A stretch of 38,652 bases of DNA from a virus. The notes under the pieces were generated by a model that ran no database searches, was not told the DNA's origin, and saw nothing but the letters and a program-made list of their open reading frames with translations. Below are positions 4,787-33,188 of this stretch, piece by piece. Each line of letters starts with the position of its first letter. Position 1 is the first letter of the stretch. A program made the translations under genes and the position numbers. The stretch spans positions 1 through 38,652 of IMG/VR virus record IMGVR_UViG_3300033388_007451. One strand, 5' to 3'.

Positions 4787-4945
4787 TGTTCCGAGAGTTG
4801 GAAGCGGTTGACTGCTCGCAAAAATGGGCTTGGGGTATGAGGTCGGCTCTCATACCCGACAATCTCCAGAGGTGGAGGGCCCTTGGGCTCTGTTCGGGGA
4901 GTTAGCTGCCCCACAACCCCTAAAACACCGCTTCCAACTCTGGGC
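4787..4945 (+). ncRNA. Structured RNA of unknown class
   Basis: A perfect 15-bp closing helix joins 4794-4808 to 4927-4941. Inside lie at least four hairpins: GTATGAG/CTCATAC (whose GTCGG loop can also pair with CCGAC just downstream), CTCC/GGAG, AGGGCCC/GGGCTCT and GGGG/CCCC. The AGGGCCC helix uses a G-U pair only if the + strand is transcribed, which sets the strand. A -10-like TATTAT sits at 4775-4780; the -35 is weak. It is next to a convergent HNH gene. HEARO-type RNA was considered, but the gene orientation is wrong for that class. Confidence 0.6.
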
Positions 4946-4949
4946 ACAT

Positions 4950-5510
4950 TCACAAGATATTAGAGGAGATTTTTGGTTTATTTTTAAGAGAGTGAAATTT
5001 CAGATGAGCTTGAGAGGAGGGGAAAACATAAAGATTTTCTGGTCTATCATCGGTAATATCTCCGTTGATGTGATGCACAACCTCCTTCTTGGTTAAATAT
5101 CTATTGAGGTATTTTTCTGCCACTAACCGACTTCTACGAACATAACCTTGTTTATCAGCGAAAGGATGGTTAAGAGCACGAATCAAAATATATCCACAAC
5201 TATGCTTTTTCCAACCTCTTCCACTACCTCGAGGAGAATGATGTGTATGAGGTTTATAAGGTTTTTCTGATTTTCTGTGTTGTTGATAGTAAATTTTAAA
5301 ATAAGAAGGGTGTTTTTTTCGCCAATTTCGTGAAGCTTGAATTATTTTTTCTCGATTTTTCTGAGCCCACCTTTTCCGAGATTCTGTCCGAGATTCTGGA
5401 TGTAATTTATCCCATTTCCTTTTATAGGGAGCATCATAACAAGATTTACAAAGACCTTTTGTGTAATGAGGTTTGAGTTTATTACATTTTTTACAGATTA
5501 TTAGTTCCAT
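4950..5510 (-). CDS. HNH homing endonuclease
   Basis: The product has 186 residues. The N-terminus has a small zinc knuckle (CKKCNKL...CKSC), followed by a basic arginine/lysine-rich linker for DNA binding. The C-terminal 80 residues hold the HNH_3-type nuclease core: GYILIRALNHPFADKQGYVR, then VVHHINGDITDDRPENL with the HH catalytic pair and Asn/Asp metal ligands, and a final histidine in QAHLKFH. It reads against all its neighbours and is free-standing: I see no intron signature or split gene around it. It is probably a mobile endonuclease that spreads its own locus during mixed infection. Confidence 0.85.
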   Translation of the reverse strand: MELIICKKCNKLKPHYTKGLCKSCYDAPYKRKWDKLHPESRTESRKRWAQKNREKIIQASRNWRKKHPSYFKIYYQQHRKSEKPYKPHTHHSPRGSGRGWKKHSCGYILIRALNHPFADKQGYVRRSRLVAEKYLNRYLTKKEVVHHINGDITDDRPENLYVFPSSQAHLKFHSLKNKPKISSNIL

Positions 5511-5558
5511 ATATTAAGTTTAGCACATTAAAAATTTGAAAACAAGAGGAGGTTAAAA

Positions 5559-5738
5559 ATGAAAAGATATTTTGTCACTGAAATCCTGTATAACGGTATT
5601 GTCAGAAGCGAGGCAGATATAGAAACCTTAAAATGGCTTCTGGGAAAATGGACGAAAGAGATGAGAATTAGGGTAATCGTAGAGAAAGAAGAGAGAGAAG
5701 ACCAAATAAAGGAGGGAAAAAATGAAAAAGTTTGGTAG
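5559..5738 (+). CDS. Small hypothetical protein
   Basis: The product has 59 residues (MKRYFVTEILYNGIVRSEAD...). A strong ribosome site (AGAGGAGGTTAAAA-ATG) decides the start. The stop lies inside the next gene, a 17-base overlap that implies translational coupling. The sequence predicts strand-helix-strand with a charged tail. No family is recognised. It is the first gene of the SD-rich accessory operon. Confidence 0.7.
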   Translation: MKRYFVTEILYNGIVRSEADIETLKWLLGKWTKEMRIRVIVEKEEREDQIKEGKNEKVW

Positions 5739-6448: not shown

Positions 6449-6534
6449 TACCTCAAAACTATCAAAAGGGAGGTAAAAATGAAAAAAATGATGAAGTTCG
6501 AAAATCAAGACAAAATAAGAGGAAGACCCATTAA
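6355..6534 (+). CDS. Small basic helical protein, overlapping both neighbours
   Basis: The product has 59 residues (MLRKIREILKRVKRVYRENL...), strongly basic, an amphipathic helix followed by a polar tail. It overlaps the last 94 bases of the upstream gene and the first 56 of the next in a different frame. A near-perfect ribosome site (AAAGGAGGTAAGAAA-ATG) supports it, equal to the sites of the accepted genes around it. No family is recognised. Confidence 0.5.
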   Translation: MLRKIREILKRVKRVYRENLEEIFEQGDGTVIPQNYQKGGKNEKNDEVRKSRQNKRKTH

Positions 6535-7072
6535 GTTGAATAAGTTGAGATTAGAGCTCAAACCCGGTAAGGATTACACTGAAATTGTCTTTTGTGGAGA
6601 TTGGCACTATGGAGCAAGAGAGTGCGCTGTCAATAAAGTGAAGGATATGCTTGATTACTGCTTAAAGCATCGGATTTATGTTTTCTTAATGGGAGACCTG
6701 CTGGAAGCTGGACTTCGGACTTCAATCGGAGCTTCGATGTATCGTCAAAAGCTCAATCCTCAAAAACAGATGGAAGATGTAATTGAACTTCTCCGACCCT
6801 TAAGTGAAAACAATCTGATTCTTGGAGCTTTGGAAGGAAATCACGAGTTAAGAATAGAGAAAGAGACTGGGATTTCTATTATGAAAGTTATCTGTAGATT
6901 TCTAAATATCCCTTATTTGCACGGAGCTTGCTGGAACCTCTGGTATGTTAAAGATCAATCCTACAAAGTTTATACTCTCCACGGTTCTTCTTCTTCAAGG
7001 TATGTCTATACCAAATTGAAGGCACTGGTTGATATTTCTCATAATTTCAACGCAGACTTGATGGCAATGGGT
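6479..7072 (+). CDS. Metallophosphoesterase, exon 1
   Basis: The 5' exon gives the first 198 residues of a calcineurin-like phosphoesterase. It shows the metal-binding motifs in order: GDWHYG (D-x-H), MGDLLEAG (GD), LEGNHELR (GNHE) and YTLHGSS. The fifth motif, GHxH, is missing here and is completed by the second exon at 7978: MAMG + HVHELADTV. Read without splicing, the frame runs into a stop at 7124-7126 and gives a 215-residue protein lacking the last metal ligands. The likely role is a DNA/RNA phosphodiesterase or phosphatase, as in many phage members. Ribosome site GGGAGGTAAAA-ATG. Confidence 0.85.
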
Positions 7073-7221
7073 CAACGTGGCTCATATAAAATCTGGCTAT
7101 ATGCTGGAATACCCTTAGAGCCTTGAATACAAAACACTTATCTGAAAGGATAAGTGAAGTAAAAATTTCAAGGATTGGGCAATCAGCAGGGAAGATTCCT
7201 TAAATGGAAAACCCTCAGAGA

Positions 7222-7866
7222 CTATATGCCAGACAATTTGCCTTTATCAAAGAGACGATGACAGTTTGGACAAAGCAAGATAAGATTTTCTTCTATATAT
7301 TTCCCGTTCTTTCTACGAGGGATACGATGAGCAACGTCGCAAATATCCTTGTTCCATCCACAGACTTGACAAGTATGATTGTATTTTTTGTTCATATATC
7401 TACGCCAATAATCTTCACTGTGCTTTGTATAATATCTGCTTCGGTCGGTAGGAATTCCGTATTTCTTAATTCGTTTATGGATAGTTCCATATCCGCAATG
7501 ATATTTCTTGGCAATTTCCTTAATCTTTAATCCGTTTTCCAGATATTCTTTTCTCAGAACTTCTTCTGTTAATTCCTTAGCTACCTTAATCTCGTATTTT
7601 CTGGAATAAAGAGGAAATTGTTCTGGATGTTTACTTCTATATTCACCATAACATTTTATAGAGCAAAAATAATGTCGCATCGGCTTAGTATTGAATCTCC
7701 ATTTTGGACGGCGAAAAGTTTTCCCACAATTAGCACAAGTGAAAGAAACCCACTTAGCTCGTCGGTCTTTATTATAACATTCTCTTGAACAGTATTTCCC
7801 CCGTTTACCCTTATTGGGTCTTGAATAAAAACTTTGTCCACAAACTTTACACTTTTTATATGGCAT
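7222..7866 (-). CDS. Intron-borne HNH homing endonuclease
   Basis: The product has 214 residues. The N-terminus has two treble-clef zinc knuckles (CKVCGQSF...YCSREC and CANCGKTF...FCSIKC). A helix-turn-helix follows (IKEIAKKYHCGYGTIHKRIKKYG), and the C-terminus is an HNH nuclease core with paired cysteines (CQVCGWN...CDVAHRIPRRKNG...NLILLCPNCHRLFD). It lies within the P8 region of the group I intron but is encoded on the opposite strand. Its stop codon falls inside the intron's P7 sequence. It has its own consensus promoter and a nearly leaderless start. It likely drives homing into intronless alleles. Confidence 0.9.
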   Translation of the reverse strand: MPYKKCKVCGQSFYSRPNKGKRGKYCSRECYNKDRRAKWVSFTCANCGKTFRRPKWRFNTKPMRHYFCSIKCYGEYRSKHPEQFPLYSRKYEIKVAKELTEEVLRKEYLENGLKIKEIAKKYHCGYGTIHKRIKKYGIPTDRSRYYTKHSEDYWRRYMNKKYNHTCQVCGWNKDICDVAHRIPRRKNGKYIEENLILLCPNCHRLFDKGKLSGI

Positions 7867-7873
7867 ATAGTTT

Positions 7874-7901
7874 ATTATATCATCATCAAACTATATGTCA
7901 A
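7874..7901 (-). promoter_or_regulatory. Consensus promoter of the intron HNH gene
   Basis: On the reverse strand TTGACA (7901-7896), 16-base spacer, TATAAT (7879-7874), both perfect. The expected start of transcription is near 7867, one base before the ATG at 7866, so the mRNA should be essentially leaderless. Confidence 0.8.
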
Positions 7902-7977
7902 TAGGCAAATTGAAGATATAGTCCGAACTTATGGGAAACCATAAGAAGCAGGCAATAAGTCTGCGATAACAAAATTA

Positions 7978-8193
7978 CACGTCCACGAGCTGGCTGATAC
8001 TGTTCTGAAAGTTCAAACAGTTGATAAAATGCGAAAGCAGGTCGTGGAACATAAAAAGTTTCTCTTACTAACTGGACACTATTTGAGATATGAGCGTTCC
8101 TATGCTCAAGAAAGAGGTTATCCTATTGGTAAAATCGGCTCTCCGAAAGTTAAGTTATTCGGGAACAAAAAAGATATAAGAATTTCTTATTAA
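7978..8193 (+). CDS. Metallophosphoesterase, exon 2
   Basis: This 3' exon encodes the last 71 residues (HVHELADTVLKVQTVDK...). Joined to 7072 it gives a 269-residue enzyme with the complete GHVHE metal site. It has no start codon of its own. The tail (GKIGSPKVKLFGNKKDIRI) is typical of the C-terminal strands of small phage phosphoesterases. The next gene's ribosome site overlaps its stop. Confidence 0.85.
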   Translation, partial: HVHELADTVLKVQTVDKMRKQVVEHKKFLLLTGHYLRYERSYAQERGYPIGKIGSPKVKLFGNKKDIRISY

Positions 8194-9168: not shown

Positions 9169-10347
9169 ATGGCAAAAAATACAGGGAAAAATAAACAAGA
9201 GAAAATAAATAGATTGGCTCGTAATTTCCATTTATTTCTATTAAAGATGGCAATAGAGGGACTTCGGAAGGACTTTCATTTGACTCCCAAAGAAATACCT
9301 GCTGAGAAATTAAGACAGTTCTTACGAGATATTACAAGCACTCAACAGATAAACTATATCTCTTTGGCAGATAGTTTTTATTATGTTATTCCTTGGAGTC
9401 AGTTTAAAGAAATATTGGATAGTTTGCGAGATTTCTTGAAGAAAATTCCCTATATAAAAGAGAAAATGGATTGTTATGTGCCTTCTGAGTTAGCTTGGAG
9501 TTGGGGATTATTCTTTGCCGATGGAAGTTGTGGTTTAGGGAAAAAAGGATATGGTGGAGCTTTTTGGAGGATAGTTAATACAAATCTCACTTATCTTAAG
9601 AGAGCAAAAAGAGCATTTGAAAAATATTATCCTAATTTAGAATTCCCAATTAGATTATATCCTTCATATCGGAAAGGAAATAAAACAAATTATGGAGCAA
9701 GGACAAAAAATACTTATTGCTTGGAAGTTAAACCAAAAAGAGAGGGACGGAGAGAGCCACATAAAAAATATATCAATGGAGGACAAAAGGAAAGGGGAAA
9801 ATTTATTGAGAAGTATATAAATTATTTTTATTGGTTAGGTAAAAAGAGAGTTCCTAAACCTATATTTGATAAATATTATTATCCCAGAAAATCATTTCTT
9901 AAAGGTGTAATAGCAGGAGATGGAACTAAAACACTGAGTAATAATTATATCAGTATAGGAAGAGATAACCCGATGGCAGAAGCAATGTTATCTTGGCTTA
10001 TGTATAGCTTAAAATGGAAGCAACGAACTCAAATAACGCCTAGGGAATTTAAACTTTATTTCAAAGATACGGGATTAAGAGCTTCAGAATGTCAATGTGC
10101 TTGTGATGACTTTGCTTATTTGTTTTCATCGTTGGTTAGTTGGATATTTCACTTGAATACCTGCGGAGTAGTTCACGGTAGGGTTAATATAGGACACTTC
10201 TGGAACGCAATAATAGCGGAAAAAGAAGGGAAGCTGAAACTTTTTTATTATGATGTTAAGAAAGGTGGTTATACAGAATATGAAAAAGGGAGGCCAATTA
10301 TTATAGGTAATTGGTCTTATACTCCTGATAGTTATCGATTCTTTTAA
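9169..10347 (+). CDS. Transglutaminase/cysteine-protease-like protein with embedded LAGLIDADG endonuclease
   Basis: The product has 392 residues in three parts. Residues 1-101 and 312-392 together read as one domain: joining KMD to CDDFAYLFSSL restores the motif DCDDFA, followed by GHFWNAI and the FYYD strand, a Cys-His-Asp pattern of transglutaminase-like cysteine proteases. Residues about 102-311 are a LAGLIDADG homing endonuclease with two motifs, WSWGLFFADGS and FLKGVIAGDGT. The insert sits exactly at the catalytic cysteine codon, which is duplicated at both ends. I see no intein splicing blocks (no classic N-terminal block, no terminal His-Asn) and no group I core, so whether the host protein is restored is unclear. 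Confidence 0.8.
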   Translation: MAKNTGKNKQEKINRLARNFHLFLLKMAIEGLRKDFHLTPKEIPAEKLRQFLRDITSTQQINYISLADSFYYVIPWSQFKEILDSLRDFLKKIPYIKEKMDCYVPSELAWSWGLFFADGSCGLGKKGYGGAFWRIVNTNLTYLKRAKRAFEKYYPNLEFPIRLYPSYRKGNKTNYGARTKNTYCLEVKPKREGRREPHKKYINGGQKERGKFIEKYINYFYWLGKKRVPKPIFDKYYYPRKSFLKGVIAGDGTKTLSNNYISIGRDNPMAEAMLSWLMYSLKWKQRTQITPREFKLYFKDTGLRASECQCACDDFAYLFSSLVSWIFHLNTCGVVHGRVNIGHFWNAIIAEKEGKLKLFYYDVKKGGYTEYEKGRPIIIGNWSYTPDSYRFF

Positions 10348-12957: not shown

Positions 12958-13278
12958 GTGTTAAAAGCCAATAACAAAATCAGAGGGCTCTCTTACGAGG
13001 AGATATACTCAGATGGCATAATAATGTGGCTGGTTAGAATTCGCAACCCTTTCTTTAAAGAAGGCCGCTGGTGGTTCAGTTTAAACGATAAACTGTTTGA
13101 GGTCGCCAGAATGCGGGGAGTTAAAAAGTTTATTGTTCAAGTCGGGCAAAAAGAGGTAACCCTGCCAGTTTTAACGCCGTTAGAATTACAAACCAAAGAA
13201 ATAAAGGGTGAGGTTGAGAAAATACCAAGTAAGTTTGCGGGCTTGCCGCCTTGGAAAAGATATTTATTCCCTATTTAA
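12958..13278 (+). CDS. Hypothetical protein
   Basis: The product has 106 residues beginning at GTG 12958, two bases after the initiator stop. It is alpha/beta with many aromatic and basic residues (FFKEGRWWFSLNDKLFEVAR) and ends in LPPWKRYLFPI. No cysteine motif or known family. Position suggests a replication accessory protein. Confidence 0.6.
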   Translation: MLKANNKIRGLSYEEIYSDGIIMWLVRIRNPFFKEGRWWFSLNDKLFEVARMRGVKKFIVQVGQKEVTLPVLTPLELQTKEIKGEVEKIPSKFAGLPPWKRYLFPI

Positions 13279-13311
13279 AAGGTCGCTAACCCCTTAACTA
13301 AATAAAAAACT

Positions 13312-13443
13312 ATGGAAATCGAAACTAAAACCCTTGAAGAAGAAACCCCTGAGGAAGAAAAACCAGAGGAAACTACCGAAGAAACTCAAGAAGAAGCTCC
13401 CGCAGAAGAGGAAGCCACCCCAGAAGAGGAGGCTGGCGAATAA
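13312..13443 (+). CDS. Small acidic Glu/Pro-rich protein
   Basis: The product has 43 residues, almost all Glu, Thr, Pro and Ala (PEEEKPEETTEETQEE). The start has the local leader AATAAAAAACT-ATG and an AAAAGGTCGC element 36 bases upstream. It overlaps a highly basic open frame, which I take to be its shadow. Such acidic peptides can mimic DNA or coat basic proteins. Confidence 0.5.
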   Translation: MEIETKTLEEETPEEEKPEETTEETQEEAPAEEEATPEEEAGE

Positions 13444-13450
13444 CATCAAA

Positions 13451-26611: not shown

Positions 26612-26914
26612 ATGAAAGAGATTCAAAAAGAAATAAAAACTTCTAAAGGATATTGTCATTACAGGATTACTGACGAAAATGTTGAGATTACTGACATTTT
26701 TGTAGAGCCAAAATTCAGAGGGCAAGGAGAAGGAAGAAAGATGGTTGAAAAAGTAATCAAAAAAGCCGAAGGAAAAGCTTGTGTTTATCTCTTTACTAGA
26801 AAAAGTAATGAGGGAGCACAAAAATTCTATGAGGCAATAGGGTTCAAGAAGGTTTGCGAAATTGAAGGATTTTACAGGTCAGAGTCAGGGATTATGTATA
26901 TCAAAAGACTATGA
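26612..26914 (+). CDS. GNAT acetyltransferase
   Basis: The product has 100 residues, short but complete. It shows the acetyl-CoA site VEPKFRGQGEGRKMVEKVIK (Q/R-x-x-G-x-G/A) and the ending GAQKFYEAIGFKKVCEIEGF. It transfers an acetyl group, perhaps to an amino sugar made by the aminotransferase in the same cassette, although protein or antibiotic substrates cannot be excluded. The ATG directly follows the inverted-repeat element. Confidence 0.85.
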   Translation: MKEIQKEIKTSKGYCHYRITDENVEITDIFVEPKFRGQGEGRKMVEKVIKKAEGKACVYLFTRKSNEGAQKFYEAIGFKKVCEIEGFYRSESGIMYIKRL

Positions 26915-27843
26915 AAATAATATATTTGGGTCAGTTTAATAATCCATTTTCTGACACAACCGAAAAGCACATTAAAAAAGCATTTGAGATGTTGGAACAT
27001 CAAGTAATTCCGATTGATGAAACCTATTTTCACCAAGAGAGAAATAGGATTTTAGAGGAAATCTATTATGAGAACGCTGATTTATTCTTTTTTCACAAAG
27101 GAGGTTGGAGGTACAAAATGACTCCCGAACAATTGGTAGAGTTTCTGACTTATGTGACAATTCCCAAGGTCTTTTGGTGGTTTGATAAAATTTCTGACAA
27201 AACTCCTGAAGCTTTACCTGATGGCAGATATGTTTTAAGAGAGCATTGGATGGATTTGATTCTCTCTTATGTTGATTATGGCTTTGTTACTGATGGAACC
27301 TTTGTTAGAAGGCACAAATACAAGAATTTATATGTTCTAAGGCAAGGAGTTGGCGATGAGTTCGTCAATTATAAAGGTCAATTTCGTCCAGAGTTTGCCA
27401 GAGATATTGTATTTTTAGGCAGGGTTTATGGAGGGAGAGGAGAGTGGATTGCTGACTTAAAAAAGGAGTTTGGCGATAGGTTTGAGGTTTTCAACAATGT
27501 TTTTGGGAGAAATCTTAAAGATTGTCTGAAATCTTGCAAGATTACCCTCTCTCCTTTGTATCCAGCCAATGAGTTTTATTGGTCTTCCAGATTTTATCAG
27601 ATGGTAGGAAACGGCGGCTTCTTAATTCACCCAAGATTAGAAGGATTAAAAGAGGAAGGTTGGATTGATGGCAAGCATTATGTTGGTTATAGAACTTATC
27701 CTGAAATGTATGAAAAAATTAACTATTATTTAGAACACGAGAAAGAACGAGAAAAAATCAGGAAACAGGGTTATGAATTCTGTATCAAGAATTTTAAGTA
27801 TTCAGACCGAGTTAAAGAGTTATTGGAGAAAATAAATCTATGA
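26911..27843 (+). CDS. Glycosyltransferase, GT-B fold, CgeB-like
   Basis: The product has 310 residues. MKIIYLGQFNNPFSDTTEKH opens the first Rossmann half. IVFLGRVYGGRGEWIADLKK starts the second, and TLSPLYPANEFYWSSRFYQM with GNGGFLIHPRLEGLKEEG is the donor-binding, receptor-like segment of CgeB/GT1_2 transferases. Overlaps both neighbours by four bases. It adds a sugar to an unknown acceptor. Confidence 0.85.
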   Translation: MKIIYLGQFNNPFSDTTEKHIKKAFEMLEHQVIPIDETYFHQERNRILEEIYYENADLFFFHKGGWRYKMTPEQLVEFLTYVTIPKVFWWFDKISDKTPEALPDGRYVLREHWMDLILSYVDYGFVTDGTFVRRHKYKNLYVLRQGVGDEFVNYKGQFRPEFARDIVFLGRVYGGRGEWIADLKKEFGDRFEVFNNVFGRNLKDCLKSCKITLSPLYPANEFYWSSRFYQMVGNGGFLIHPRLEGLKEEGWIDGKHYVGYRTYPEMYEKINYYLEHEKEREKIRKQGYEFCIKNFKYSDRVKELLEKINL

Positions 27844-28442
27844 TGATGATTATAACTGGTTGTGGACATTCGGGAACATTGTTTGTGGCAACTTTGTTTC
27901 ATATTCCTCACGAGCCCCCACACAGAGATTTATATATTCCCGATTATCCCGCTTATCTAAAAGCTTGGGAAGATAAAGATTTTGCCAGAGAGTGGGTGAA
28001 AGGAAACCTGATAGGTATTGAAAGAGAAAGCAACTCTTTCCTTGTTCCATTTGTTGAAGCGATTTTAGAGGAATTTTCCAATTGTAATGTCTTTCATTTG
28101 GTTAGAGACCCCAAAAAAGTTATTCGTTCCCTTTTGTCTAACGGGTTATACATTGACCGAGCTGGCTATCACAACATTAAATTGTTTGATAAAAGCCCAA
28201 ATGGAGAGAAATGGGAAAACCTAACTCCTTTTCAAAAAACTTGCTGGTATTGGAGAATAATTAACGAAAAATTGAGAAAACTGGGTTGTCCCCTGATTAA
28301 ATTGGAAGAATTGAGAGGGAAACCCCTTCACCAGAAACTTCATCGTATTCCTTCTCATCAGGAGTGGTTAAAAGAACAAAAAGATTATTTTAACAAAGTC
28401 GTTTATCCAGAAGCTAAATTTTATGGCTACCAGAAAATATAG
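27840..28442 (+). CDS. Sulfotransferase-like protein
   Basis: The product has 200 residues. IITGCGHSGTLFVATLF is the 5'-PAPS loop (P-loop variant G-x-S-G-T), and VFHLVRDPKKVIRSLL is the 3'-phosphate motif (R-D-P-x-x-x-x-x-S). Together they mark cytosolic sulfotransferases, which move sulfate from PAPS to a hydroxyl or amine. An APS kinase that would supply PAPS lies 330 bases on, which makes true sulfation plausible. It overlaps the next gene by 20 bases. Confidence 0.8.
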   Translation: MMMIITGCGHSGTLFVATLFHIPHEPPHRDLYIPDYPAYLKAWEDKDFAREWVKGNLIGIERESNSFLVPFVEAILEEFSNCNVFHLVRDPKKVIRSLLSNGLYIDRAGYHNIKLFDKSPNGEKWENLTPFQKTCWYWRIINEKLRKLGCPLIKLEELRGKPLHQKLHRIPSHQEWLKEQKDYFNKVVYPEAKFYGYQKI

Positions 28443-28773
28443 TTTGTTTATTGGCAGATGGCAACCTTTTCACGAGGGACATAAAACCTTAATTGAGAAA
28501 GTGTTGAAAGAAGGAAAATTTGTTTGTGTTGCTATTCGAGATACTGAAATTTCCAAAGATAATCCTTTTTCAGTGGAAGAAAGAAAAAAGATGATAAAAA
28601 AAGCCCTGAAAAAATGGGGAGAGAGGGTAAAAATTATCACCATTCCTGATATAACCGAGGTCTGTTATGGAAGAAAAGTAGGTTGGGGGATAAGAGAAAT
28701 TAGGTTAGATAAGGAAACAGAAAAAATTTCAGCAACCAAAATTCGTGAGATGTTTACAAGTAAAAAACTATGA
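28423..28773 (+). CDS. Adenylyl/cytidylyltransferase-like nucleotidyltransferase
   Basis: The product has 116 residues. SLFIGRWQPFHEGHKTLIEK has the HxGH nucleotidyltransferase signature, and ISATKIREM is the second ATP-binding motif. It is smaller than NMN adenylyltransferase but of that kind. ATP sulfurylase belongs to the same superfamily, so it could make APS for the adjacent kinase; that is inference. Overlaps the kinase by four bases. Confidence 0.8.
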   Translation: MATRKYSLFIGRWQPFHEGHKTLIEKVLKEGKFVCVAIRDTEISKDNPFSVEERKKMIKKALKKWGERVKIITIPDITEVCYGRKVGWGIREIRLDKETEKISATKIREMFTSKKL

Positions 28774-29102
28774 TTTTGTGGATAGTTGGTCAATCTAAAT
28801 CAGGAAAATCTACCTTGGCTCGAAAAATCAGTCAGGGAACTTGGATAGTTTTAGATGGAGATGCGATGAGAAGAAGTATATCAGCAGATTTAGGATTTTC
28901 TAAAGAAGATAGATGGGAGAACAATTTGCGAATAGCTAGGTTATCCAAAGAATTAGACGCTCAAGGATTTGATGTGGTAGTAGCTACAATTTGTCCTTAT
29001 AAAAAACTCCGCCAAGAAGTTAAACGAATTACAGGTTGTAAATTTGTTTATCTCGATGGCGGATTAATAAGAGAAGATTACCCTTATGAAGAACCAAATT
29101 AA
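28770..29102 (+). CDS. cysC: Adenylylsulfate (APS) kinase-like protein
   Basis: The product has 110 residues, shorter than usual CysC (about 170-200). WIVGQSKSGKSTLARKI is Walker A; VLDGDAMRRSISADLGFSKE with DRWENNLRIARLSKELD is the CysC signature (LDGDxxR...DLGFSxxDRxEN), followed by VVVATICPYKKLRQE. The usual lid and C-terminal segment is abbreviated to YLDGGLIREDYPYEEPN. It phosphorylates APS to PAPS, the sulfate donor for the sulfotransferase upstream. Confidence 0.85.
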   Translation: MILWIVGQSKSGKSTLARKISQGTWIVLDGDAMRRSISADLGFSKEDRWENNLRIARLSKELDAQGFDVVVATICPYKKLRQEVKRITGCKFVYLDGGLIREDYPYEEPN

Positions 29103-30105
29103 AATAGGTTTAGTAGCCAGAGCTGACAATTCAGGTCTGGGTACTCTCTCGAGGAGTTTTTATAAAAATTTGCTCATAGACAAAGTTTTAGTTGTTTACA
29201 ATAACGCTTATCCATTTGAACCAGAAATTTATCAGAACCCAATAGTTTGTCAGCACGGAATGGCTCCCTCTTTAGAGGAAATAAAAGAATTTTTGAAAGA
29301 TTTAGATTTAGTGATTACTTTTGAAACTCCTTACAACTGGAATTTGTTTTCTGAAGCCAGAAAAAGAGGAGTGAAAACAGTTTTAATTCCCAATTATGAG
29401 TGGTTACCCCAAACCTTGCCAGTAGTTCCTGATTTATTTCTTTGTCCTTCGAAATTAGATTATGAGGAAGTTAAAAACAACACAGCGACAGTTTCAGAAG
29501 TTAAGTATTTGCCAATGCCGATTGATGATGAGTTAATCCCTTACAAAGTGAGAGAAAAAGCAGAGGTATTTCTCTTTAACAACGGACACGGCGGACATAT
29601 GGGTAGAAATTCAGCTAGAGAATTATTTGAGGCGATTTCCCTTGTAAAGGAAGATGTAAAATTCAAGATTCACTCTCAGGTTTATTTTGATTCAGTAATA
29701 AATGATTCAAGGGTAGAGATTATTTATGGTGAAATTCCTTATGGGGAGTTATTTCAAGAAGGTGATGTTTTCTTGTATCCTCACAAGTTTGACGGTTTAT
29801 CCTTACCGATTCAAGAAGTATTGTTAGCGGGAATGCCAGTAATTTCAACTGATATTTATCCTCACAACGAATACTTACCAAAAGATTGGCTATTTAAACC
29901 AGAAGCAATGACTAAGATTTATGTTAAAAGGCAGATTGATATGGCAATTATAAATCCTGTTAAACTGGCTGAAAAAATAACTGAGTGGTGTCATCGAGAC
30001 ATTAAAAAAGAATCAGAGAAAGCAAGAAAGATTGGTGAGCAGTTTTTATGGAAAAAACTCAAACCAAAATACTTACAAGTTTTCCAATCCTTATGCCAAA
30101 AATAA
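29086..30105 (+). CDS. Glycosyltransferase, GT4-like
   Basis: The product has 339 residues. The second domain has the GT4 signature FDGLSLPIQEVLLAGMPVIS (E-x7-E type) and a typical ending. A N-terminal segment ARADNSGLGTLSRSF contacts the acceptor. It likely adds the second sugar of the phage-encoded glycan. Overlaps the kinase by 17 bases. Confidence 0.85.
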   Translation: MKNQIKIGLVARADNSGLGTLSRSFYKNLLIDKVLVVYNNAYPFEPEIYQNPIVCQHGMAPSLEEIKEFLKDLDLVITFETPYNWNLFSEARKRGVKTVLIPNYEWLPQTLPVVPDLFLCPSKLDYEEVKNNTATVSEVKYLPMPIDDELIPYKVREKAEVFLFNNGHGGHMGRNSARELFEAISLVKEDVKFKIHSQVYFDSVINDSRVEIIYGEIPYGELFQEGDVFLYPHKFDGLSLPIQEVLLAGMPVISTDIYPHNEYLPKDWLFKPEAMTKIYVKRQIDMAIINPVKLAEKITEWCHRDIKKESEKARKIGEQFLWKKLKPKYLQVFQSLCQK

Positions 30106-31040
30106 AAAACATAGTAGTTATTGGTGGAGCAGGATTTATAGGTTCGCATATTGTAGATAAATTAGTGAGTCAAGGACACAATGTTCTGGTTTTAGACAAT
30201 TTCAGTTCGGGTTCTTTAAAAAATATAAACAAAAAAGCAGAGTGGCTGGAGTTTGATATTAGAAGCAGTCCTGAAAGTTTGGCACAGATTTTAAAGAATG
30301 CGTGGATTGACGAAGTCTACCATTTAGCAGCAGAACCTTATATCCCAGAGTGTTATGAGAGACCAAAAGAATTCTTTGAAGTAAATGCGGTGGGAACAAT
30401 GAATGTTTTGCTAGCTTGTAAAATGGCAGGAGTAAAAAGAGTTCTCTATTGGTCATCAAGTGAGGTTTATGGAACTCAGGAAGGATTGATTTCCGAACAA
30501 ACCCCAACAAATCCTCAATCCACTTATGCGGTCTCAAAATTGGCGGCAGATAGATTATGTTTTACCCTTTACAAAGAGCAGAAAATTCCAGTAATTATTT
30601 TGAGGCAGTTTAACTCTTATGGCGAGAGAGAAACCCACGAATATGTTATCCCTGAAATTATTTCTCAGTTAGCAAAGTCTAACACCGTTAGATTGGGCAA
30701 CATAAAAGCTAAAAGAGATTTCATTTATGTAGGAGATGCGGCTGAAATAGCGGTTGAGTTAATGGAAAAAGGTAAGGCGGGAGAGGTATATAATTTAGGT
30801 TCTGGCAGTTGTTATTCAATAGAGGAAATTGCTTACAAAATAGGGGAAATTATGGGAAAAGAAATAAAGATAGAAATTGACAAAAAGAAATTGAGACCTT
30901 TTGATGTGGAAAAATTGCAGGCGGACAATTCAAAAATTTACAAAGTTGTTTCTAAAAAGCCGACTACTTCCTTTGAGGAAGGACTTAAAAAAACAATTGA
31001 TTGGTTCTATGAAAACGGGCAGAAGTGGGGATTTGAATAA
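30093..31040 (+). CDS. NAD-dependent sugar epimerase/dehydratase
   Basis: The product has 315 residues from ATG 30093; a 5' extension to 30048 overlaps the upstream gene and lies before the Rossmann start, so it is rejected. IVVIGGAGFIGSHIVDKL binds NAD. YWSSSEVYGTQEG and STYAVSKLAADR supply the S-Y-K triad. LRQFNSYGE and DFIYVGDAAEIAV are substrate motifs. An extended SDR such as UDP-glucose 4-epimerase or a related 4,6-dehydratase. Confidence 0.9.
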   Translation: MPKIKNIVVIGGAGFIGSHIVDKLVSQGHNVLVLDNFSSGSLKNINKKAEWLEFDIRSSPESLAQILKNAWIDEVYHLAAEPYIPECYERPKEFFEVNAVGTMNVLLACKMAGVKRVLYWSSSEVYGTQEGLISEQTPTNPQSTYAVSKLAADRLCFTLYKEQKIPVIILRQFNSYGERETHEYVIPEIISQLAKSNTVRLGNIKAKRDFIYVGDAAEIAVELMEKGKAGEVYNLGSGSCYSIEEIAYKIGEIMGKEIKIEIDKKKLRPFDVEKLQADNSKIYKVVSKKPTTSFEEGLKKTIDWFYENGQKWGFE

Positions 31041-31464
31041 AATTGTAGCAGTTTCAGGATACTTTGCACCACTTCATAGGGGACATTTAAATTATTTTAA
31101 AGAAGCGAAAAAGTTAGGAGATTTGTTGGTAGTTATTGTTAATAATGATTATCAATTAGCGAGATTTAAAAATAGAAAATATCCGATTGAAGACAGAATT
31201 GAAGTTATAAAAGAATTGAGGTGTGTAGATAGGGTCATGGAAAGTATTGATAAAGATAGTAGTGTTTGTAGAACCTTGGAAAGATTAAAACCCGACATCT
31301 TTGCTAATGGTGGCGATAGAACAGAGAAAAATATTCCTGAGGTTGAAGTCTGTGAGAAATTGGGGATAAAAATGGTTTTTGGGGTTGGAGGAGAAAAAAT
31401 TCAATCTTCAACTAATCTTTTGAAAAATTATGAAAATTCCAGTTTGTCGTCCTTCAATAACTAA
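31009..31464 (+). CDS. Cytidylyltransferase-like sugar nucleotidyltransferase
   Basis: The product has 151 residues from ATG 31009, overlapping the epimerase; a TTG at 31033 is possible. IVAVSGYFAPLHRGHLNYFK has the HxGH signature, YPIEDRIEVIKELRCVD is typical of RfaE2/TagD-like cytidylyltransferases, and FANGGDRTEKNIPEVEVCEK is the usual substrate segment. It makes a CDP- or ADP-activated sugar or polyol. Overlaps the aminotransferase by 35 bases. Confidence 0.85.
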   Translation: MKTGRSGDLNKIVAVSGYFAPLHRGHLNYFKEAKKLGDLLVVIVNNDYQLARFKNRKYPIEDRIEVIKELRCVDRVMESIDKDSSVCRTLERLKPDIFANGGDRTEKNIPEVEVCEKLGIKMVFGVGGEKIQSSTNLLKNYENSSLSSFNN

Positions 31465-32524
31465 AACTGAAAAAAGGTGGGTTAAAAAAGCACTGAAAGA
31501 AAACAGGATTTCTTCTACCGGAGGATTGGTAGAGTTGTTTGAGGAGAGATTTGCCAAAAAAGTAAATCGTAAGTATTGCGTGGCGGTTAATTCTGGGGGT
31601 TCAGCATTATTTCTAACCTTATGGGCTTTGGGAATAAGAAAAGGAGATGAAGTGATAGTTCCCGATTTTACAATGGTAGCTACCCCTAACGCTGTCAGCC
31701 AGTGCGGAGCGAAACCAGTTTTTGTGGACGCAGAATACGATACTGGGAATATAGAAGTTTCAAAAATTGAGGAAAAAATTACCAAAAAGACGAAAGCAAT
31801 TATCCCAGTTCATATTTACGGACATCCCTGCGATTTGGATAAAATTTTCCGTATTGCTAGCAAGTATAAAATACAGGTTATTGAAGATGCTGCCGAAGCC
31901 CACGGAGCACTTTACAAAGGAAAGCCAATAGGTTCTTTTGGGAAAGCAAGTTGTTTCTCTTTTTATGCCAACAAAATTATAACTTGCGGGGAGGGGGGAG
32001 CGATTTGCACTGATGATAAATCTTTGGCTGAGGAATTGAGAGAGTTGCGAGCTTACTATTTCTCACCCGTTAGACATTTTGACCATAAAAAAATTGCTTG
32101 GAACTTGAGAATGTCATCTTTAGAAGCAGCAGTGGGATTAGGACAACTGGAAAGATTTGAGGAGCTTGTTTCCAAAAGACAAATGAATGTTGGTTATTAC
32201 TCCCGAAACTTAAAAGAGTTGGAAGAAAAAGGATTTTTAGAGAGACCAATAAAGAAAGATTACGCTGAACCTGTTTATTGGATGTACTGGATAAAAGTCA
32301 AAAAAAGAGACCAGTTAATGAAGTTTTTGGAAAAAAAAGGAATTGAGACCAGAACAGGATTTTTCCCAATGCACTGGCAAAAACCTTATAAAAAACCTTA
32401 CAAAAAATATCCAGTGGCAAATAAATTAGGAAAGAATTCTCTTTATTTGCCTTCAGGTTCAGATTTAACAAATAAAGAAAAAGATTATGTTATTGAAAAA
32501 ATTAAAGAGTTCTACCAAGTGTAA
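31430..32524 (+). CDS. DegT/DnrJ/EryC1 sugar aminotransferase (perosamine-synthase-like)
   Basis: The product has 364 residues, full length. It starts MKIPVCRPSITKTEKRWVKK; SSTGGLVELFEERFAKKVNR and VAVNSGGSALFLTLWALGIR bind PLP phosphate. IEDAAEAHGALYKGKPIGSF has the Asp and His around PLP. FSFYANKIITCGEGGAICTD holds the catalytic lysine. HIYGHPCDLD is close to GDP-perosamine synthases. It converts a 4-keto nucleotide sugar to a 4-amino sugar, which fits the GNAT and epimerase. Confidence 0.9.
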   Translation: MKIPVCRPSITKTEKRWVKKALKENRISSTGGLVELFEERFAKKVNRKYCVAVNSGGSALFLTLWALGIRKGDEVIVPDFTMVATPNAVSQCGAKPVFVDAEYDTGNIEVSKIEEKITKKTKAIIPVHIYGHPCDLDKIFRIASKYKIQVIEDAAEAHGALYKGKPIGSFGKASCFSFYANKIITCGEGGAICTDDKSLAEELRELRAYYFSPVRHFDHKKIAWNLRMSSLEAAVGLGQLERFEELVSKRQMNVGYYSRNLKELEEKGFLERPIKKDYAEPVYWMYWIKVKKRDQLMKFLEKKGIETRTGFFPMHWQKPYKKPYKKYPVANKLGKNSLYLPSGSDLTNKEKDYVIEKIKEFYQV

Positions 32525-33188
32525 TTCGGTAATTATTGGAGCAGGTGAGGTTGGTCGAGCATTGTTTTTCTCTTTAATAACCCATTATCAGGTCTTCTGT
32601 TTTGATAAAAAATATCAACCTTGTAAAGCTACCTATTTACATATTTGCTTTCCTTATTCCAAAGATTTTGTCAGGGAAGTTAAAAAATACCAGCGAATTT
32701 ACAAACCCAAATATACTATTGTGCACTCAACCGTGCCAGTGGGAACTTCCAGAAAGTGTGGAGCAATCCACTCACCAGTAAGAGGAATTCACCCATTCTT
32801 ACAAGAGGGATTAAAAACCTTTATTAAGTATTTAGGGGGAGAGAAAGCAAGCGAGGTGGCTGACTATTTCCGAAGAGCAGGATTTAGAGTTTATCTCTTT
32901 GATAAACCAGAAACCACCGAGTTAATGAAAATTCTTTCAACAACCTTTTATGGAACTTGTATAGAATTTACCAAAGAAGTTAAGAGATTGTGCCAGAAAT
33001 ACAAAGTTCCTTTTGAAGCTTGGACGATTTGGACAAAAGATTACAACGAAGGATACAAAAAACTTGGTTTTCCCGAATTCCAGAGACCAAATCTTGTGCC
33101 AATAATGAAAAAAACTGGCGGACATTGTGTCAGACCGAATTATCAACTTCTCAAGTCGAAATTTACTAACTTTCTTAAAAAATTATGA
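32487..33188 (+). CDS. Compact UDP/GDP-sugar dehydrogenase-like protein
   Basis: The product has 233 residues. SVIIGAGEVGRALFFSLI is the NAD fold. IVHSTVPVGTSRK and ETTELMKILSTTFYGTCIEF match nucleotide-sugar dehydrogenases (STVPxGT, ETAELxK). KKTGGHCVRPNYQLL near the C-terminus holds the catalytic Cys of the GGHC motif. The C-terminal nucleotide-binding domain of the usual 400-450-residue enzyme is absent and the N-terminal domain is short. It may oxidise a sugar to an acid. Overlaps both neighbours. Confidence 0.75.
   Translation: MLLKKLKSSTKCNSVIIGAGEVGRALFFSLITHYQVFCFDKKYQPCKATYLHICFPYSKDFVREVKKYQRIYKPKYTIVHSTVPVGTSRKCGAIHSPVRGIHPFLQEGLKTFIKYLGGEKASEVADYFRRAGFRVYLFDKPETTELMKILSTTFYGTCIEFTKEVKRLCQKYKVPFEAWTIWTKDYNEGYKKLGFPEFQRPNLVPIMKKTGGHCVRPNYQLLKSKFTNFLKKL

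Follow-up and report, generated by a model that had tools for sequence, protein, structure and literature searches.

A LAGLIDADG endonuclease reading frame inserted at the catalytic cysteine codon of a phage MOA-type protease gene

RESULTS

The interrupted gene and its surroundings

The stretch of DNA analysed here (the window, 38,652 nt) is a whole IMG/VR virus record, IMGVR_UViG_3300033388_007451. Its first 39 bases recur at its end, and therefore the window is probably a complete, circularly assembled tailed-phage genome. The features at the locus of interest are as follows.

9169..10347, plus strand: interrupted protease gene, 392 codons and a stop; open frame, the sole match to the protease-family profile in the window
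9169..9471, plus strand: N-terminal protease segment, 101 aa, ending in PYIKEKMD; has its own profile match (31.0 bits, profile columns 13-72) and aligns with 51 homologues
9471..9474, no strand: TTGT, left copy of a 4-base repeat (last base of GAT, then TGT)
9472..10101, plus strand: in-frame LAGLIDADG homing endonuclease insert, 210 codons; missing in all insert-free homologues; LAGLIDADG profile 19.7 bits
9490..9528, plus strand: first LAGLIDADG motif, LAWSWGLFFADGS; profile domain 1, ADG, with the catalytic acid at D17 of the insert
9892..9927, plus strand: second LAGLIDADG motif, SFLKGVIAGDGT; profile domain 2, GDG, with the catalytic acid at D150 of the insert
10101..10104, no strand: TTGT, right copy of the 4-base repeat (last base of GCT, then TGT)
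10102..10344, plus strand: C-terminal protease segment, beginning with the catalytic motif CDDFA (CDDFAYLF...); has its own profile match (26.7 bits, profile columns 73-128)
10195-10197, plus strand: catalytic His codon (GHFWN), within the C-terminal protease segment
10486..10659, plus strand: hydrophobic 57-aa ORF, a small membrane (holin-like) protein; lysis context by inference

A first-pass annotation, made from the letters alone, had described 210 in-frame codons whose removal joins KMD to CDDFA and gives the motif DCDDFA, and this is what we found in a 392-aa ORF that is open throughout. It had placed the end of the insert at 10104, a position that takes in the Cys codon itself; the insert ends at 10101, with an ambiguity of a few bases. 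The boundary is uncertain by up to 4 bases, given the exact TTGT at either end; two random positions equally far apart would share 4 or more bases in a row with a probability of ∼3%. The Cys at the start of the insert and the Cys after it, both reported earlier, are present (C102 and C312). They stand there because the insertion lies at the protease's own catalytic Cys codon and is bounded by the 4-base repeat, rather than as a matter of intein chemistry. GC content by codon position is consistent across the insert, the other plus-strand frames are rich in stops and the frame is kept across all 392 codons.

Elsewhere in this 38.6-kb phage, a sugar-related cluster (glycosyltransferase-like protein, nucleotidyltransferases, epimerase and DegT-type aminotransferase) occupies 26911-33188, within the structural region. 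A 233-aa ORF with no family match lies on the minus strand at 18340-19041, among plus-strand genes.

Homologues of the flanking segments

Used directly as queries, the whole ORF, the insert and the two halves joined together returned nothing useful from PDB, NCBIfam, PHROGs or phage records; homologues surfaced only through degenerate DNA patterns for DCDDFA. The pattern Y-x5-DCDDFA, run over viral contigs, produced 93 stretches, mostly from one coherent family with the hallmarks D..Y, DCDDFA, a conserved His and EPQ. About 80 phage homologues from this family are free of the insert and align straight over the junction. The first-pass annotation had named a search for insert-free homologues with DCDDFA as a check, and had taken a failure of such homologues to align at the junction as evidence against its reading; the homologues exist, and they do align there.

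Against a profile of 79 insert-free homologues the joined halves (182 residues) scored 74.0 bits, with 5.3 bits for the best of 200 shuffles; as the family was gathered by a pattern that fixes Y and DCDDFA, scores at those columns are inflated. The match of the N-terminal part alone (31.0 bits) extends over 60 columns, and the pattern had fixed just two of these, Y and D; the C-terminal part (26.7 bits) still scores 9.4 bits when its own CDDFA is left out. The two matches abut at columns 72/73. In the unspliced protein C102 and C312 each align with the catalytic Cys of the family; the 51-member alignment places the insert between C102 and D313. Thus the active-site motif is not in one piece, with the 210-codon insert standing between D101 and C312. 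On these alignments the joined halves are one protein domain.

The family profile matched PDB entries 3phz (E 2.3e-19) and 2iho (E 5.9e-16) in the C-terminal domain of the Polyporus squamosus and Marasmius oreades agglutinins, and the family Cys aligns with Cys215 of the Marasmius oreades agglutinin (MOA). Residue 215 serves as the catalytic Cys in MOA, whose protease is papain-like and depends on calcium (PMC4764322). With E 0.1 as the limit, Pfam Agglutinin_C matched 45 of 52 members, and the catalytic His is kept, H343 being an invariant column of the family alignment. By these matches, the host protein is a MOA-type (Agglutinin_C) Ca-dependent papain-like protease domain. As the split codon corresponds to the catalytic Cys215 of MOA, the insert breaks the catalytic motif itself.

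This protease domain, found in fungal lectins, is widespread in uncultivated phage contigs (∼80 distinct members, L036-L128). It is almost absent from PHROGs, and two of its members, used to query the GenBank phage collection, found no match there.

Insert-free relatives

The closest relatives are two intact, full-length and insert-free proteins, L048 (187 residues, phmmer 6.8e-24) and L040 (184 residues, phmmer 2.2e-16). Both have the C-terminal IGxWxY stretch in common with the window protein, and the genes neighbouring L040 follow the same order as in the window, so that this insert-free homologue is syntenic. The segment after the insert is 44% identical to L040 and 39% identical to L048, the two relatives being 38% identical to each other. 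The catalytic C, the DDFA and the H are all retained in the window protein. The post-insert segment thus appears free of relaxed constraint or decay, which may mean that the insertion is recent, that the fusion is functional or that the insert is removed by an unrecognised route.

In the L048 record, genes for a small membrane protein and a lytic transglycosylase come after the protease homologue. Judged from the neighbouring genes, a lysis role for the protease is likely. In a related genome with an 85% identical terminase (G002), the same neighbours flank a papain C1 peptidase with a peptidoglycan-binding domain (L018 17534-17722 and L017 1-915), so the comparison with the window reads as a swap between two different cysteine peptidases at one locus.

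The endonuclease insert

A LAGLIDADG profile, built from the LAGLIDADG domains of archaeal intein-bearing ORFs, matched the insert with 19.7 bits over both motifs, while the best of 500 shuffles reached ∼4 bits; Pfam LAGLIDADG_3, with its match at the second motif, would by itself be weak evidence (E 0.014). The motif acids of LAWSWGLFFADGS and SFLKGVIAGDGT are 133 residues apart and both are kept. The endonuclease identity proposed earlier is borne out by this two-motif match: by its motifs, the insert is a two-motif LAGLIDADG homing endonuclease, a monomer of about 200 aa. The retention of both acids makes enzymatic activity plausible.

In none of the collections searched did a close relative of the endonuclease appear. 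The insert was sought in the relatives' records and in 193 genomes of the phylum of a Woesearchaeota genome and was not found; a LAGLIDADG-motif pattern run over viral contigs gave no match, and tblastn of the insert against a phage collection gave nothing beyond one match at E 8. AlphaFold models were too poor to interpret where the insert is concerned (pLDDT 63.8 for the full protein, with the insert region below 50, and 40.7 for the insert alone), and Foldseek matches of the insert derived from the poor model are meaningless.

A candidate internal start for a separate endonuclease, ATG at 9466, has a ribosome-binding-site match of at most 3 nt; most genes of this phage are likewise without one. 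A hidden out-of-frame HNH ORF of the ShiLan kind was considered and rejected, as no other ORF of at least 50 aa lies inside the insert.

Search for splicing elements

Profiles of the intein C-terminal blocks recovered left-out real inteins with 34-80 bits and gave the window protein about -1 or no score; for the N-terminal blocks, scores of about 29-42 bits on genuine-looking TxxH blocks compare with about -1 or no score on the window protein. Blocks A/B (TxxH), blocks F/G and a terminal HN or Asn were sought in the insert and none was detected; the insert has a single His and ends in GLRASECQCA. With positive controls that work, we therefore agree with the earlier claims that N- and C-terminal splicing blocks are missing and that there is no terminal Asn. 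Moreover, the endonuclease motif starts at insert residue 7, and therefore there is no room for a splicing domain ahead of it.

Group I and group II intron covariance models (Rfam) had no match in the insert, and RF00028 had none in 9380-10180 at E up to 10. The same model found a group I intron 1.5 kb upstream (6977-7286 at E 2.4e-8, and 7911-7943), which served as a positive control. Neither a DCDDFA-preserving join nor any TTGT-shifted version of it has both of the ends expected for group I (U before, G at the insert end). A canonical archaeal bulge-helix-bulge was not seen at the in-frame junction, the best nearby motif being equalled by 15% of random region pairs.

Other homing-type elements in the phage and its relative

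The upstream group I intron interrupts the metallophosphoesterase gene of the window (6479-8193) at 7074-7977 (RF00028, E 2.4e-8) and contains an HNH ORF in the opposite orientation, 7222-7866 (minus); the corresponding gene of G002 is uninterrupted. A stretch of ∼0.9 kb with a minus-strand HNH ORF (window 4787-5704, ORF 4950-5510) is missing in G002, where the flanks are nearly contiguous (33374/33380). It looks to be a third homing-type insertion in the phage.

The record of L040 (IMGVR_UViG_3300031746_001495) has an arrangement of another kind. There the protease ends in DTSSARYF with a stop at 13236-13238, and a separate HNH ORF (13243-13752) follows, whose last eight residues and stop repeat that ending. 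The 27-base stretches concerned, 13212-13238 and 13726-13752, have five differences, all synonymous. A WHO-like element brings a diverged host 3′ end, and the old end comes to lie behind the ORF of the element (PMC7282813). The L040 arrangement looks WHO-like: it is what such an element would leave, here with a recoded 3′ end in a phage. This element supports the view of the protease gene as a repeated target of splicing-free homing endonucleases.

DISCUSSION

The nature of the insert

We consider it probable that the insert is a naked LAGLIDADG homing endonuclease gene, without a splicing partner, which lies in frame in the catalytic motif of the protease and is expressed as a fusion. The endonuclease would cut the conserved DCDDFA motif of insert-free alleles during co-infection, and repair of the break would copy the insert into the cut allele; the 4-base TTGT repeat would fit the 4-nt LAGLIDADG stagger at the original insertion. 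The insert would probably be transcribed and translated within the host ORF, its product staying a fusion. The insert emerges from the active site between Asp and the nucleophilic Cys, for which reason the fusion would probably be an impaired or inactive protease. Homing would be expected to place the insert at a highly conserved motif, as seen here; besides, a second, different splicing-free endonuclease is seen on the same gene family in L040, and the actinophage methylases discussed below offer a precedent. On the other side, there is one insert-bearing genome, from a single metagenomic assembly, and mobility is something that we infer; the searches brought up nothing closely related to the endonuclease; the catalytic Cys is the site where an unspliced insert should harm most; and conservation of the flanks is undiminished, whereas a dead enzyme from an old insertion might show relaxed constraint.

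The first-pass reading thus stands in part. Its anatomy, its catalytic motif and the missing splicing machinery hold, while a degenerate or novel intein-like element received no positive support, with no blocks A/B or F/G, one His and no HN or Asn. Its other suggestion, a permanent domain insertion, is close to the reading given above, for which a splicing-free homing endonuclease gene is the better term.

The unrelaxed conservation of the flanks and the retention of C, DDFA and H could also be explained by a stable chimera, in which the endonuclease domain is tolerated or co-opted, the protease folds around the insert with C312 as nucleophile and both functions persist. The authors of the methylase case argue for tolerance of this sort from predicted structures; still, with the insertion at the active site, between Asp and the nucleophilic Cys, we regard a chimera as unlikely here. 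We think it less likely again, by about half, that the gene is simply broken by a recent dead insertion or that the assembly joined two molecules. The element is known from one metagenomic record, and G002 has a different (papain C1) peptidase at the same place, so that the gene may be dispensable or replaceable; however, the frame is kept over 392 codons with both endonuclease motif acids intact, codon-position composition is coherent, and one would hardly expect a chimera to land in frame on precisely a homing-type site.

That some unrecognised route (an intron of unknown type, protein splicing without a Hint domain or ribosomal bypassing over a very long distance) takes the insert out and so restores an active protease of 182 residues keeps a small probability, hardly above that of a broken gene or a misassembly, because the catalytic residues are intact and both flanks are undiminished in conservation. 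Each single route is more improbable still. Compact LAGLIDADG genes occupy archaeal introns, and a group I intron does lie in a gene 1.5 kb upstream, as one might expect if an intron type missed by the models (diverged group I or II, or bulge-helix-bulge) were removed at the RNA level. We nevertheless give this little credence: the covariance models have no match in the insert, the endonuclease domain takes nearly all of it and leaves no space for a ribozyme core, no exact-DCDDFA join has the U before and the G at the insert end that group I requires, the in-frame junction has no canonical bulge-helix-bulge (the best nearby motif being at chance level) and the peptidoglycan-enzyme genes of the window and its relatives suggest that the host is a bacterium. 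Just as doubtful is an intein of a novel or degenerate kind, which would splice the protein with C102 and C312 as nucleophiles and no Hint domain. The Cys at insert position 1 and at position +1 after the insert would suit it, but no block profile matched despite working positive controls, one His, no TxxH and no terminal HN are present, and with the endonuclease motif from insert residue 7 no preceding splicing domain is possible. Least credible, with a probability close to nil, is that the ribosome bypasses 630 bases, taking off at TGT (9472) and landing at TGT (10102), as in T4 gene 60 but over a far longer distance. The take-off and landing codons are identical, and bypassing in T4 gene 60 does occur beside a homing endonuclease gene; however, the codon identity results from the insertion itself, known bypasses skip tens of bases, and no take-off stop codon or structure was identified.

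Either the phage lives with a split, probably inactive enzyme, or it removes the insert by unrecognised means. According to the usual view, splicing hides homing elements and so lets them persist in conserved genes. A splicing-free LAGLIDADG endonuclease at a catalytic nucleophile is a stringent case, in which the host enzyme would be lost, tolerant or restored by something unrecognised. The MOA-type phage protease looks to have been targeted repeatedly by different splicing-free endonucleases, and could thus be useful for studying how damage to hosts is limited.

Comparison with known systems

The protease domain is homologous to the papain-like domain of the MOA and Polyporus squamosus (PSL) agglutinins (2iho, 3phz), with DCDDFA around the catalytic Cys in both. 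MOA and PSL are fungal chimerolectins with a ricin-type lectin domain, while the phage proteins are without the lectin. The window protein differs further in that the EPQ motif of the family reads D-V-K, and in that it bears the insert.

As for the insert, the nearest parallel is the lone LAGLIDADG domain in the DNA methylases of cluster F actinophages (Taj_79 and eight others), for which no intein or intron was detectable and for which tolerance of the insertions was suggested on the basis of predicted structures (PMC9957025, PMC11855218). Both cases have a phage host gene, an in-frame LAGLIDADG, a conserved insertion region and no detectable intein domain or intron. The window insert, known from one insert-bearing genome, is thus of the methylase type: an in-frame endonuclease in a conserved motif, with no detectable splicing element. 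The methylase element is about 139 aa long and common to nine sequences, whereas the window insert has 210 aa, two motifs and one genome; the host genes are different, and the window insert sits at the catalytic nucleophile.

The ShiLan domain (PMC11855218) is similarly inserted in a conserved motif of a phage gene and read through in frame, with no detectable splicing element; its endonuclease is an out-of-frame HNH, while in the window the endonuclease is the in-frame reading. In Aeh1 nrdA and in T4 gene 60, the host genes are split by MobE and MobA, respectively, neither of which has a splicing element (reviewed in PMC2988022). MobE and MobA too are homing endonucleases within phage coding sequence, but their host genes make separate polypeptides that reassemble, in contrast to the continuous reading frame of the window. 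The WHO elements in yeast FBA1 (PMC7282813) also home into conserved coding sequence without protein splicing; they replace the host gene 3′ end and the window insert does not. The mark of the WHO type, a duplicated and diverged host 3′ end beside the endonuclease, was sought and is absent from the window and present in L040. A splicing-free, lone LAGLIDADG insertion was thus already known; what is new here is the host gene and an insertion exactly at its catalytic nucleophile.
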